A stretch of DNA of 11,610 nt from Nitrospinota bacterium (lineage in GTDB: Bacteria; Nitrospinota; Nitrospinia; UBA9942; JAHJSF01): positions 1-11,610 of the forward strand of contig JAHJSF010000183.1 of NCBI GenBank assembly GCA_018830405.1. Direction: 5' to 3'. The first letter of the stretch is position 1. Every line of letters begins with the position of its first letter. Position numbers and translations under genes: made by a program. Shown here piece after piece: positions 7,857-11,610 of the stretch. The notes beneath the pieces were generated by a model, which was not told the DNA's origin, did no database searches, and saw nothing but the letters and a program-made list of their open reading frames with translations.

Positions 7857-8042
7857 TCTGTTTTTTGGAGGCAGTAAAGAGCCTGTTTGGATACTGTCAT
7901 AGTATCAAAACAGGAGGGGGATACACAATTCCAATCCTAAAAATTAAATGACGGAGCAGTTCTTCTCCTCCCTTTAGCAAAGCATGTCCTCGACAGCGAT
8001 CGGGGAGAAGGCAAGGAGGGATTTGAAACATATTTTAACCAC
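7857..8042. repeat. Long direct repeat, copy 1 (186 bp)
   Basis: Aligns without gaps to 8462-8647 at a constant offset of 605 bases; I count 9 mismatches by eye (about 95% identity). Four of these fall at 7889-7895 in a hairpin arm and five at 7932-7957. Visible structure: CCTGTTT (7882-7888) plus GATAC (7890-7894) pair with GTATC (7902-7906) and AAACAGG (7908-7914), separated by one G.A mismatch. Further on are the inverted pair CTTCTCC / GGAGAAG and, between its arms, two short stems, CTTT-AGC-AAAG and CCTCGA-CAGCGA-TCGGGG. The repeat ends at AACCAC. It contains no coding frame that both copies share. Confidence 0.9.
7899..7928 (-). promoter_or_regulatory. Possible promoter inside repeat copy 1
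   Basis: On the minus strand TTGTGT (7923-7928), an 18-bp spacer and TACTAT (7899-7904) could be -35 and -10 boxes driving the 61-codon gene whose ATG is at 7809. The identical pair occurs in copy 2. Both boxes match consensus only partly, and the -10 lies in the hairpin. Confidence 0.3.
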
Positions 8043-8080: not shown

Positions 8081-8257
8081 CTATTTACTCAACATCTTAA
8101 GTATATGTTTGGCTAAGGAGTTTTTAATCTCGTTGTGCCGGGGAATCGGCTGAGATATTTTTGTATCGGGGTTGGTATACCAATCGTGTCGGCCCCCATG
8201 ACGGATGAGCAGGCAGCCCATTTTTTCAATGGTGCGGATTAAATCTTTACGCTTCAT
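8081..8257 (-). CDS. hicA: HicA family toxin
   Basis: Ribosome-independent mRNA interferase toxin of a type II toxin-antitoxin pair. The 58-residue product begins MKRKDLIRTIEKMGCLLIRH and continues GGRHDWYTNP, then PIPRHNEIKNSLAKHILKML. This is the compact double-stranded-RNA-binding-like fold of HicA. His24 in GGRHDWY matches the catalytic histidine of the family, and the PRHNEI segment before the last helix is also typical. Length is normal. Its ATG overlaps the hicB stop by 4 bases (ATGA), so the toxin is made by coupled translation after the antitoxin. The gene sits inside the pair of long direct repeats. Confidence 0.88.
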   Translation of the reverse strand: MKRKDLIRTIEKMGCLLIRHGGRHDWYTNPDTKISQPIPRHNEIKNSLAKHILKMLSK

Positions 8258-8445
8258 GCGACCGAAAGTTCACCAACGCGAAGGACATTGGGGATATTGC
8301 CGCTTGTTAATTCCTCGTGTATGTCTTTCAGGTTTGCCTTCAATTCATCAAGGGTTTCCCCCTCTGTTCTGTAGTCGGGGAATTCTTCAAGCCAGCCGAT
8401 GAACATATCTTCATCCTGGTAATAAACGAATTTTTTTGTTTCCAT
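8254..8445 (-). CDS. hicB: HicB family antitoxin
   Basis: Antitoxin that binds and neutralises HicA. The 63 residues start METKKFVYYQDEDMFIGWLE and continue EFPDYRTEGETLDELKANLKDIHEEL (21-46). This is the partial RNase-H-like fold of short HicB proteins: a strand-strand-D/E-x-G-x-W pattern followed by the GETLDELKANL helix. There is no C-terminal helix-turn-helix or ribbon-helix-helix domain, so autoregulation by DNA binding, known for longer HicB proteins, is not evident. Ribosome binding is weak (AAGGGA about 6 bases upstream). Order is antitoxin then toxin, the reverse of E. coli hicAB. Long repeat copy 2 starts 16 bases upstream of the ATG. Confidence 0.88.
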   Translation of the reverse strand: METKKFVYYQDEDMFIGWLEEFPDYRTEGETLDELKANLKDIHEELTSGNIPNVLRVGELSVA

Positions 8446-8461: not shown

Positions 8462-8647
8462 TCTGTTTTTTGGAGGCAGTAAAGAGCCTGTTTAGTTATC
8501 GTCATAGTATCAAAACAGGAGGGGGATACACAATTCTAATCCTAAAAATGAAATAGCAGAGCAGTTCTTCTCCTCCCTTTAGCAAAGCATGTCCTCGACA
8601 GCGATCGGGGAGAAGGCAAGGAGGGATTTGAAACATATTTTAACCAC
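8462..8647. repeat. Long direct repeat, copy 2 (186 bp)
   Basis: Second copy of 7857-8042, in the same orientation, ending at the same AACCAC. In this copy the upper part of the first hairpin is damaged: the 5' arm reads GTTAT where copy 1 has GATAC, while the outer CCTGTTT/AAACAGG pairing is kept. The 3' half, with CTTCTCC/GGAGAAG and its two inner stems, is identical to copy 1. Together the copies bracket hicBA (8081-8445). Confidence 0.9.
8504..8533 (-). promoter_or_regulatory. Possible promoter for hicBA inside repeat copy 2
   Basis: Minus-strand TTGTGT (8528-8533), 18-bp spacer, TACTAT (8504-8509). Transcription would begin near 8497, about 50 bases before the hicB ATG. The boxes are partial matches and the same pair lies in copy 1, so support comes mainly from position. 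Confidence 0.32.
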
Positions 8648-8818: not shown

Positions 8819-11610
8819 ATGACCTTAGACGAATATATCAAGACGATAAACGAACGGCATAAACTCGGCAACGCAACCGAACACACCTTCAGGGGCGACC
8901 TGCAACGCCTCATCGAAACCTTAGCCCCCGCAATCAGGGCCACCAACGAACCTAAAAGGCAATTGTGCGGCGCGCCAGATTACATCATCACCAAAAAAGA
9001 TATCCCCGTCGGTTTTATAGAGGCCAAAGACATTGGGGATAAAGACCTTGAAGGAGCTAAAAAGACAGAAAACAAAGAACAGTTCGACCGCTACAAGGCC
9101 GCCCTTTCCAATCTTATATTCACCGACTATTTAGACTTTCATCTCTATAAAGACGGGAAATTTGTTACCAAGATAGCCATTGCCGAGATTACCCCCAAAG
9201 GGATAAAAGCATTACCCCAAAACTTTGCCCCCTTTGAAGCCCTCATAAAAGACTTTTGCTCCTATATCGGCCAAACCATCAAAAGCCCTAAAAAGCTGGC
9301 TGAGATGATGGCCGGGAAGGCCCGCCTACTCTCCGATGTTATTGCCAAGGCCCTCACCAGTGATGAAACCCACAACGAAGACAGCTCCCTTAAAGAGCAG
9401 ATGCACGCCTTCAAAGAGATTCTTATTCACGATATCACCCCCAAAGGTTTTGCCGATGTCTATGCCCAAACAATCGCCTACGGCATGTTCGCCGCCCGTC
9501 TGCACGATACTACTTTAGACAACTTTACCCGACAGGAAGCAGCGGAACTTATTCCAAAATCAAACCCCTTCCTCCGCAAACTCTTCGGCTACATATCAGG
9601 GCCCGACATAGACGACAGAATAAAATGGATAGTCGACAGCCTGGCCGATATCTTCCTCGCCTGCAACGTAGAAGAGATACTCAAAAACTATGGCAAAAGC
9701 ACCAAAACGGAAGACCCGATTATCCATTTCTATGAAACCTTCCTGAGCGAATACGACCCTAAACTCCGTAAAGCTAGAGGCGTTTGGTACACCCCTCATC
9801 CGGTAGTAAACTTCATTGTCCGGGCGGTGGATGAGATTCTGAAAACAGAATTTAATCTCCCCCAAGGTCTGGCCGATACAAGCCAAACCAAAATTAAAGT
9901 AAGACGACAAGGGAAACAGGTAGAAGAGGAAGTCCATAGGGTGCAGATACTCGACCCGGCCACAGGGACAGGGACATTCCTAGCCGAAGTGGTCAAACAG
10001 ATATACAAAGGGTTTGAAGGGCAAGAGGGGATTTGGAGCAACTATGTAGAAACCCATCTACTGCCTCGCCTAAACGGTTTTGAACTCCTCATGGCCAGCT
10101 ACGCCATGGCCCATCTGAAACTCGATCTACTCCTGAAAGAAACAGGCTACACCCCAACCAAAAACCAGCGTCTCAATGTCTACCTGACCAATAGTTTGGA
10201 AGAACACCACCCCGACACCGGAACCCTCTTTGCCAGTTGGCTAAGTAGCGAGGCCAACGCCGCCAATCATATAAAAAGGGACACCCCCGTAATGGTCATA
10301 ATGGGGAATCCCCCCTATAGCGGCGAAAGTGCCAATAAAGGGGAATGGATTATGAAGTTGATGGAGGATTATAAAAAAGAGCCGGGGGGAAAAGAAAAAC
10401 TAAAAGAAAGAAACCCCAAATGGATAAATGACGACTATGTAAAGTTCTTGCGTTACGGCCAGCACTTTATTGAAAAGAACGGTAGCGGTGTCTTGGCCTT
10501 CATCAATCCGCACGGCTTTCTCGACAACCCAACCTTTAGAGGGATGCGCTGGAACCTCCTTAAAACCTACGACAAGATTTACACCATAGACCTGCACGGC
10601 AACTCTAAGAAAAAAGAGACTGCGCCGGATGGGAGCAAAGACGAAAATGTCTTTGATATCATGCAGGGTGTTTCTATAAATGCCTTAGTAAAAACGGGGA
10701 AGAAAAAGACCAACGAATTGGGGAAGATTTTTCATTTTGATTTGTTTGGAAAAAGAGAGCTGAAATATGATTTTCTTTCTGAAAATTCTATTAAAACTAT
10801 CCCCTACAGAGAATTACCCAACCAAGCCCCAATGTACTTTATGGTGCAAAAGGATTTCAAGGTTCAGGAAGAATACAACAAGGGCATTTCTACCAATAAA
10901 TTATTTCCTTTGAACAATGTGGGGATAGTAACAGCAAGAGATGCCTTTACTATTCATAATTCAAAAAATGAAGTTGAAAATACTATAAATAAGTTTTTAA
11001 GCTTAGACGATGAGTCGGCAAGAGCTAAATTTAATTTAGGTAAAGATGTTAGGGATTGGCAAGTTAATTTTGCTAAGAAAGACTTGCAAAATAACTATCC
11101 TAATAAAGGGCAGTTTGCAAAAGTTTCTTATCGACTATTTGATGACAAATGGACTTTCTTTACTGGTTATTCAAAAGGTTTCCACTGTTATCCTAGAACC
11201 GAAATAATGCAACATTTCCTGATTGGCAAAAATTTTGGGCTATCACTTTGTAAGCAGTTTAAATCAGGCGATACGTACCAACATGTTTTTATGACAAACA
11301 AAATAATTGAGAGCTCATTTGTTTCTAATAAAACAAGCGAGATAACAAGTGTTTTCCCTCTCTATCTCTACCCCGAAGCCAACGCTCAGCAAACCCTCGG
11401 TCAAACCGGCCAAAGAACCCCCAACCTCAACCCTGAGATTGTCAATCAGATAGCCGGGAAGCTCGGCTTAACCTTCACCAACGAGAAGGAAGAAACCGAG
11501 GGGACATTCGCCCCGATAGATATTCTCGATTACATCTATGCGGTTCTCCACAGCCCGACCTATAGGGAAAAGTACAAAGAGTTTTTAAAGATTGATTTTC
11601 CGCGCGTGCC
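8819..11610 (+). CDS. Single-chain restriction-modification enzyme (type IIG / ISP-like N6-adenine methyltransferase with PD-ExK nuclease), C-terminus outside window
   Basis: The frame is open for 930 codons to the window edge with no stop or frameshift. An in-frame TAA two codons upstream and AAGGA 8 bases before the ATG fix the start. Domains: an N-terminal PD-(D/E)xK nuclease with P53-D54, E68-A-K70 and a downstream Q88xxxY92 motif; a helical linker (about 110-310); the VWYTP segment (322-326); SAM-binding motif I DPATGTGTF (379-387); and catalytic motif IV NPPY (497-500), diagnostic of N6-adenine methylation. About 638 to 846 is the likely target-recognition region, then a conserved-looking end (DYIYAVLHSPTYREKYKEFL). 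It should methylate host DNA and cut unmodified DNA with one polypeptide. No helicase motifs are seen between nuclease and methyltransferase, unlike full LlaBIII-type ISP enzymes. By family memory roughly 100 more residues are missing at the right edge. Confidence 0.88.
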   Translation, partial: MTLDEYIKTINERHKLGNATEHTFRGDLQRLIETLAPAIRATNEPKRQLCGAPDYIITKKDIPVGFIEAKDIGDKDLEGAKKTENKEQFDRYKAALSNLIFTDYLDFHLYKDGKFVTKIAIAEITPKGIKALPQNFAPFEALIKDFCSYIGQTIKSPKKLAEMMAGKARLLSDVIAKALTSDETHNEDSSLKEQMHAFKEILIHDITPKGFADVYAQTIAYGMFAARLHDTTLDNFTRQEAAELIPKSNPFLRKLFGYISGPDIDDRIKWIVDSLADIFLACNVEEILKNYGKSTKTEDPIIHFYETFLSEYDPKLRKARGVWYTPHPVVNFIVRAVDEILKTEFNLPQGLADTSQTKIKVRRQGKQVEEEVHRVQILDPATGTGTFLAEVVKQIYKGFEGQEGIWSNYVETHLLPRLNGFELLMASYAMAHLKLDLLLKETGYTPTKNQRLNVYLTNSLEEHHPDTGTLFASWLSSEANAANHIKRDTPVMVIMGNPPYSGESANKGEWIMKLMEDYKKEPGGKEKLKERNPKWINDDYVKFLRYGQHFIEKNGSGVLAFINPHGFLDNPTFRGMRWNLLKTYDKIYTIDLHGNSKKKETAPDGSKDENVFDIMQGVSINALVKTGKKKTNELGKIFHFDLFGKRELKYDFLSENSIKTIPYRELPNQAPMYFMVQKDFKVQEEYNKGISTNKLFPLNNVGIVTARDAFTIHNSKNEVENTINKFLSLDDESARAKFNLGKDVRDWQVNFAKKDLQNNYPNKGQFAKVSYRLFDDKWTFFTGYSKGFHCYPRTEIMQHFLIGKNFGLSLCKQFKSGDTYQHVFMTNKIIESSFVSNKTSEITSVFPLYLYPEANAQQTLGQTGQRTPNLNPEIVNQIAGKLGLTFTNEKEETEGTFAPIDILDYIYAVLHSPTYREKYKEFLKIDFPRV
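10730..11355 (+). other. AT-rich target-recognition segment within the restriction-modification gene
   Basis: Hand counts of 60-base rows give 23% GC at 10741-10800, 30% at 10981-11040 and 32% at 11041-11100, against 60% at 10201-10260, 43% at 9661-9720 and 52% at 11401-11460. Codon choice changes too: ACC, GCC and CTC give way to TTT, AAT, ATT and TTA. The segment covers residues of about 638-846, downstream of the NPPY motif, where target-recognition domains lie in this type of enzyme. Edges are approximate. Confidence 0.65.

Follow-up and report, generated by a model that had tools for sequence, protein, structure and literature searches.

The restriction gene of the window, the 11,610-nt stretch of DNA analysed here, very probably encodes a single-chain Type IIG enzyme whose target recognition domain (TRD) is an exchangeable cassette and whose AT-rich dip is a standing trait of its family rather than the mark of a recent swap. 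The enzyme is of a known kind and evolves by a known mode; the striking part is the family-wide AT bias of its TRDs. Within this one Type IIG family, recognition domains and backbones mix freely across phyla. An AT-rich island inside a restriction gene is a tempting signal, but it is no proof of recent import.

A Type IIG enzyme with a two-part recognition domain

The Type IIG restriction-methyltransferase gene lies on the plus strand, as do all of its parts described here. Its frame stays open from 8819 until the contig stops at 11610. The 3' end of the gene is thereby lost: 930 codons are seen (8819..11608), and homologous open frames are ~1,000-1,150 codons long. The PADLOC model REase_MTase_IIG matches the gene product (E 0), and a Pfam scan of the product returned N6_Mtase, Eco57I and Type_ISP_C (PF18135, E 2e-50, residues 694-930). 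A nuclease motif of the PD-(D/E)xK type, P53-D54 ... E68-A69-K70, is encoded at 8975..9028. All five of its residues are invariant among 34 aligned homologues, and we take it to be the catalytic motif. The N6-adenine methyltransferase domain (9701..10693) is identified by its two Pfam matches, by conserved columns and by structural similarity to Type I M subunits and gamma-class methyltransferases. It contains DPATGTGTF (9953-9979, residues 379-387) and NPPY (10307-10318, residues 497-500), both in conserved columns.

A linker or anchor (10694..10780), the site at which other genes break up four of the homologous genes, joins the methyltransferase to the TRD. The TRD comprises a first variable half (10781..11122, residues 655-768), a near-invariant YR(P/L)FD motif (11129..11143) and a second variable half (11156..11353, residues 780-845). 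Among the aligned homologues, Y771 and R772 of this motif are invariant and F774 and D775 are conserved in at least 90%. The two halves are probably TRD-N and TRD-C, in a naming that follows the division of MmeI (PMC4833311). Beyond them lies a conserved C-terminal part (11366..11608) that again has the composition of the backbone, with a GC3 (GC at third codon positions) of 0.64, and of which the contig end cuts part off.

We built an AlphaFold2 model of the query from 34 sequences (mean pLDDT 77, pTM 0.60). It structurally matches LlaBIII, LlaGI and DrdV at Z 24-26, DrdV over the whole chain, and the large rmsd of these alignments suggests that domain placement differs. The PADLOC match, the motifs and the match to DrdV identify the query as a single-chain Type IIG enzyme, with nuclease, methyltransferase and shared TRD in one chain. 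The predicted chain order is an N-terminal PD-(D/E)xK nuclease, a helical connector, a gamma-class adenine methyltransferase, a two-lobed TRD and a C-terminal helical part. One TRD is predicted to direct both cutting and methylation, so its replacement would change both specificities together.

An AT-rich segment coincides with the TRD

An earlier note, made from the sequence alone, had described an AT-rich stretch of about 620 bases within the restriction gene, in a frame open throughout, and had placed it at the expected TRD. Each of these observations holds. An unsupervised two-changepoint fit delimits a GC3 segment at codons 637-845 (10727..11353; 2dlnL 52.5), with 32% GC and a GC3 of 0.30, compared with 48% and 0.57 elsewhere in the gene. 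When all codon positions are fitted, the segment spans 10637-11356. Its right edge is sharp (support 11333-11378) and its left edge soft (10628-10928). The assignment to the TRD agrees with the position of Type_ISP_C and with the structural matches to DrdV, LlaBIII and LlaGI. The GC values that the note gave for the dip, 23-32%, were slightly too low, since 60-base rows across 10720-11319 range from 28% to 37%; rows from 11380 on are at 50-57%.

Across 200 within-gene shuffles of synonymous codons the top GC3 statistic was 22.7, against 51.2 observed. Seventeen long genes of the same genome have GC3 drops over 208 codons of at most 0.156; the query's is 0.27. With amino acids matched, GC3 in the query TRD lies 0.27 below that outside it (z -8). 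Of the -0.155 change in total GC, -0.053, about one third, is attributable to amino-acid composition.

Recognition domains move between backbones

The query was aligned with 46 homologous proteins, and the tests of shared history drew on a closer set of 34 rows that contains the query; sampling was by single genomes per species. Mantel tests over the 34 rows showed that nuclease identity tracks methyltransferase identity (r 0.71, p 0.0005). TRD identity is uncorrelated with that of either the methyltransferase (r -0.04, p 0.66) or the nuclease (r -0.06). The C-terminal part follows the methyltransferase (r 0.37, p 0.008) and not the TRD. Individual pairs make the pattern plain: homologues L034 and L014 are 96% identical in backbone and 38% in TRD, and L009 and L007 are 95% and 27% identical, respectively. 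Along the L034/L014 alignment, nucleotide identity is 91% up to residue 666, 50% from there to residue 829 and 71% beyond it, switch points that lie near the composition edges at 637 and 845.

Topology tests led to the same result. With backbone data, AU tests rejected the query's TRD group as a clade (p 5e-39), as well as the groupings query+L006 (p 2e-5) and L030+L045+L017 (p 2e-6). With TRD data, they rejected the backbone sisters L030+L035 (p 1e-10) and the backbone group L007-L008-L009-L034-L014 (p 2e-4). Tests of L007+L022 (backbone data) and of L028+L011 and L006+L026 (TRD data) were non-significant. The TRD groups were picked after identities and trees had been viewed, which makes the p-values somewhat flattering. 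The AU tests reject one shared history for TRD and backbone, and together with the Mantel results they establish that the TRD has a history separate from the rest of the enzyme in this family. The two TRD halves are themselves partly independent (pair correlation 0.71); between L035 and L002, for instance, half 2 is 70% alike and half 1 33%.

The AT bias is shared across the family

The query's GC3 drop is the second largest among the 47 genes compared. At synonymous sites, the difference in GC3 between TRD and backbone is negative in all 46 homologues, with z < -2 in 85%. Adding eleven genes, including plasmid genes from GC-rich proteobacteria, brought the set to 58, of which 57, from several phyla, have lower synonymous GC3 in the TRD, a count that overstates the independent cases because TRD types are shared. 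The sole exception is an AT-rich plasmid gene of Acinetobacter. L002, the nearest relative by backbone, shares the query's TRD type and shows a synonymous GC3 drop of 0.18 itself. With the dip present in nearly every relative, L002 included, the dip alone is no evidence of recent import here.

Backbone columns deviate by about zero at every level of conservation, variable ones included. TRD columns deviate by -0.07 to -0.17 at every level, the most conserved included, and the AT shift therefore belongs to the region and not to variable sites. The AT bias of TRDs is thus regional, family-wide and largely synonymous. Over the homologues, mean GC3 is 0.23 in the TRD and 0.38 in the backbone, so TRDs are not merely moving among these backbones. 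TRD GC3 tracks backbone GC3 in part (logit slope 0.65, 95% interval 0.43-0.86).

A similar shift appears in Type I systems. The hsdS TRDs of EcoKI have GC3 of 0.26 and 0.19, compared with 0.66 in hsdM/hsdR. Other genomes of the class agree: in 19 of 21 Type I hsdS loci, the TRD has a lower GC3 than neighbouring ORFs (p 2e-5), with means of 0.33 in TRDs and 0.48 in all neighbouring ORFs, in a comparison made without amino-acid matching. Among open-licence papers, we found no direct description of an AT-rich bias of TRDs.

Origin of the gene in this lineage

The earlier note had regarded the backbone as resident, which is doubtful. Overall backbone GC3 (8819-10693) is normal for the host (82nd percentile of its genes), but its use of C-ending codons ranks at the 99th percentile and that of G-ending codons at the 4th. 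Eight of the phylum's 77 genomes, counting its own, contain relatives, and long matches in the phylum outside its own genome are at most 54% identical. Given this extreme codon use and patchiness, the backbone is not clearly resident. The closest relatives of the gene are in Bacteroidota; whole-genome searches found no close relative in Nitrospinota, nor in two phyla around more distant matches. Codon use, patchiness and the Bacteroidota relatives indicate that the whole gene was probably acquired horizontally.

The query and L002 are 85% identical in backbone and 70% in TRD; the query and L006 are 73% and 70% identical. Two histories could give these values: one TRD replaced by another of its type once query and L002 had separated, or a TRD that evolves faster. 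With TRD data, the AU test did not reject query and L002 as sisters (p 0.53), and the query TRD is equally close to that of L006. Identity at 4-fold sites between query and L002 is 0.30, compared with 0.26 by chance, so that synonymous sites, being near saturation, give no date for the TRD change between them.

Plasmid-borne relatives of the query TRD are at most 53% identical to it, phage records gave distant matches alone, and viral contigs held no confirmed relative of the TRD. The whole protein matched one locus among viral contigs, L073. This homologue, on a contig from a viral collection, has the same GC3 values as L021, a chromosomal gene of Mongoliibacter ruber; the two are probably one gene, and the viral scoring of L073 may stem from a prophage or defence island.

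Explanations for the AT-rich dip

The earlier note had proposed that a foreign specificity domain was recombined into a resident enzyme. Its idea of TRD movement is borne out for the family by the Mantel and AU tests; its reading of the dip as a recent foreign import is not, given the same shift in 57 of 58 genes. A recent replacement in this lineage, by an AT-rich donor's TRD, of that of a resident GC-moderate enzyme would fit the sharp right edge, the strong GC3 drop and the mobility of TRDs between backbones. It would also fit the lower identity of query and L002 in TRD than in backbone, and the equal nearness of the query TRD to that of L006, whose backbone is more distant. We nevertheless consider it unlikely, given that nearly all relatives show the dip, that L002 has the same TRD type with a dip of its own, that the sisterhood of the two TRDs stands unrejected, and that the backbone departs from the host in its own codon use. 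Selection or mutation that affects the TRD coding sequence itself (for instance through avoidance of its own or other recognition sites, mRNA structure or silencing), with foreign origin playing no role, has a real but lesser chance of being the explanation. It accords with a shift seen in many phyla, at the most conserved TRD columns and in the unrelated TRDs of hsdS, and the saturation of synonymous sites between query and L002 means that an old composition could not have survived unaided. The partial dependence of TRD on backbone GC3 weakens the case, for partial amelioration of imported DNA would give likewise.

Two further readings fare much worse. The earlier note had also named what would speak against its swap, namely congruent trees across the parts of the enzyme and a dip in every family member from amino-acid composition alone; nearly all members do have the dip, but the trees are incongruent and amino-acid composition is not its sole cause. 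That amino-acid composition, or weak codon selection at variable sites, alone produced the dip is very improbable: amino acids predict about one third of the query's drop, but the GC3 drop persists at matched amino acids, variable backbone columns lack a drop and conserved TRD columns have one. Matched-amino-acid and conservation-class tests accordingly reject amino-acid composition or site variability as sole cause. A chimeric contig joining two genomes at the TRD has a still slighter, almost negligible probability. The contig does come from a fragmented draft genome of 185 contigs, but the frame is single and open, homology is full-length in dozens of independent assemblies, and composition regains its earlier level past the TRD.

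We therefore favour a single-chain enzyme with an exchangeable TRD cassette and an AT dip that is a standing family trait. The mosaics are apparent in the sequences, and from them we infer the route: recombination in conserved flanks (around residues 630-660 and 848-860), perhaps with YRPFD as an inner anchor, would combine near-identical backbones with different TRDs. The likeliest contributors to the dip would be two: TRDs often replaced by horizontal transfer from an AT-rich pool and incompletely ameliorated, and the loss of GC-raising homologous gene conversion where alleles differ too much to pair. In many bacteria, genes that recombine have a higher GC content (PMC4450053). We tentatively propose, as not quite an even chance, that TRDs of unrelated systems (Type IIG and Type I HsdS) keep a low, partly host-independent synonymous GC. 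Low GC in TRDs would then point either to cassettes drawn from a fast-moving pool or to a lack of homologous gene conversion, and if this is true, base composition alone could locate specificity cassettes in genomes. Why the synonymous sites of TRDs stay AT-rich in hosts of differing GC becomes a measurable question.

Relation to known systems

DrdV (PDB 7lo5/7lvv) has the same whole-chain domain order as the query and is its best PDB sequence match (E 1.4e-29). Against the query model it scores Z 24 over ~750 residues, with 22% identity in the structural alignment; its TRD sequence is too unlike the query's for the recognition site to be transferred. The Type ISP enzymes LlaGI and LlaBIII (Z 25-26) resemble the query in their methyltransferase-TRD arrangement and share with it the Type_ISP_C domain, but they carry an ATP-dependent DNA translocase between nuclease and methyltransferase. 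The query Pfam scan found no helicase or translocase family, and the methyltransferase begins at about residue 295, after the nuclease motif at 53-70. Chain lengths differ: 1,406 aa in LlaGI and 1,578 in LlaBIII, compared with ~1,000-1,150 in the query family. Annotation pipelines label relatives 'type ISP'; the translocase domain that defines Type ISP is missing, and we therefore file the query as Type IIG.

Borrelia plasmids hold homologues 32-38% identical to the query. One, in Borrelia burgdorferi record NC_000956, is 35% identical over its full length; we take this record to be plasmid lp56 and the homologue to be BBQ67, BBE02 itself being unmatched. Its TRD is 36% identical to the query's, and recognition is therefore expected to differ. 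Modification of host DNA and restriction of foreign DNA have been reported for both BBE02 and BBQ67 (PMC11546952).

MmeI (Type IIL) combines nuclease, connector, methyltransferase and a TRD-N/TRD-C pair serving both activities (PMC4833311). It has the query's layout and two-lobed TRD but is a distant match (structural Z 13.9), and specificity changes in its family have been traced to pairs of TRD residues (PMC4833311), whereas the query family exchanges whole TRDs. TRDs of Type I HsdS and S-gene domains of Helicobacter pylori Type IIG systems recombine through conserved flanks into new combinations (PMC3077401, PMC3874165). The hsdS TRDs are AT-rich, like those of the query family. In HsdS and the H. 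pylori Type IIG S proteins, however, two TRDs reside in a separate S subunit; the query has one TRD inside a single chain.

Neighbourhood and interrupted homologues

The window contains no tRNA and no known RNA family. Just upstream of the restriction gene, on the minus strand, lie a HicA toxin gene (8081-8257, Pfam E 2.6e-12) and an adjoining HicB-like ORF (8254-8445) without a Pfam match. The pair is flanked by 186-base direct repeats (7857-8042 and 8462-8647, 95% identical), and these two are the only full copies of the repeat in the genome.

HicB-HicA pairs also split two homologous genes, in L086 (3415-3842, genome G164) and L084 (3580-4028, genome G163), both exactly at the methyltransferase/TRD linker (query residues ~627-631). 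The two pairs differ; the HicB of L084 falls below the Pfam cut-off, and the TRD part in G163 holds stop codons. At the same linker, L037 (5935-6432) has an IS200-like transposase ORF of 165 aa (Pfam Y1_Tnp, below cut-off), and the TRD part is retained as a second open frame that has its own start. In L046 (6014-7165), the insert at this linker is a DDE transposase gene. The linker looks like a tolerated break point, from which a two-subunit enzyme could result. On a Roseinatronobacter plasmid, a homologue (L097, 295-3370) is annotated as overlapping methylase and type ISP genes, an overlap that suggests a frameshift or a two-chain form.
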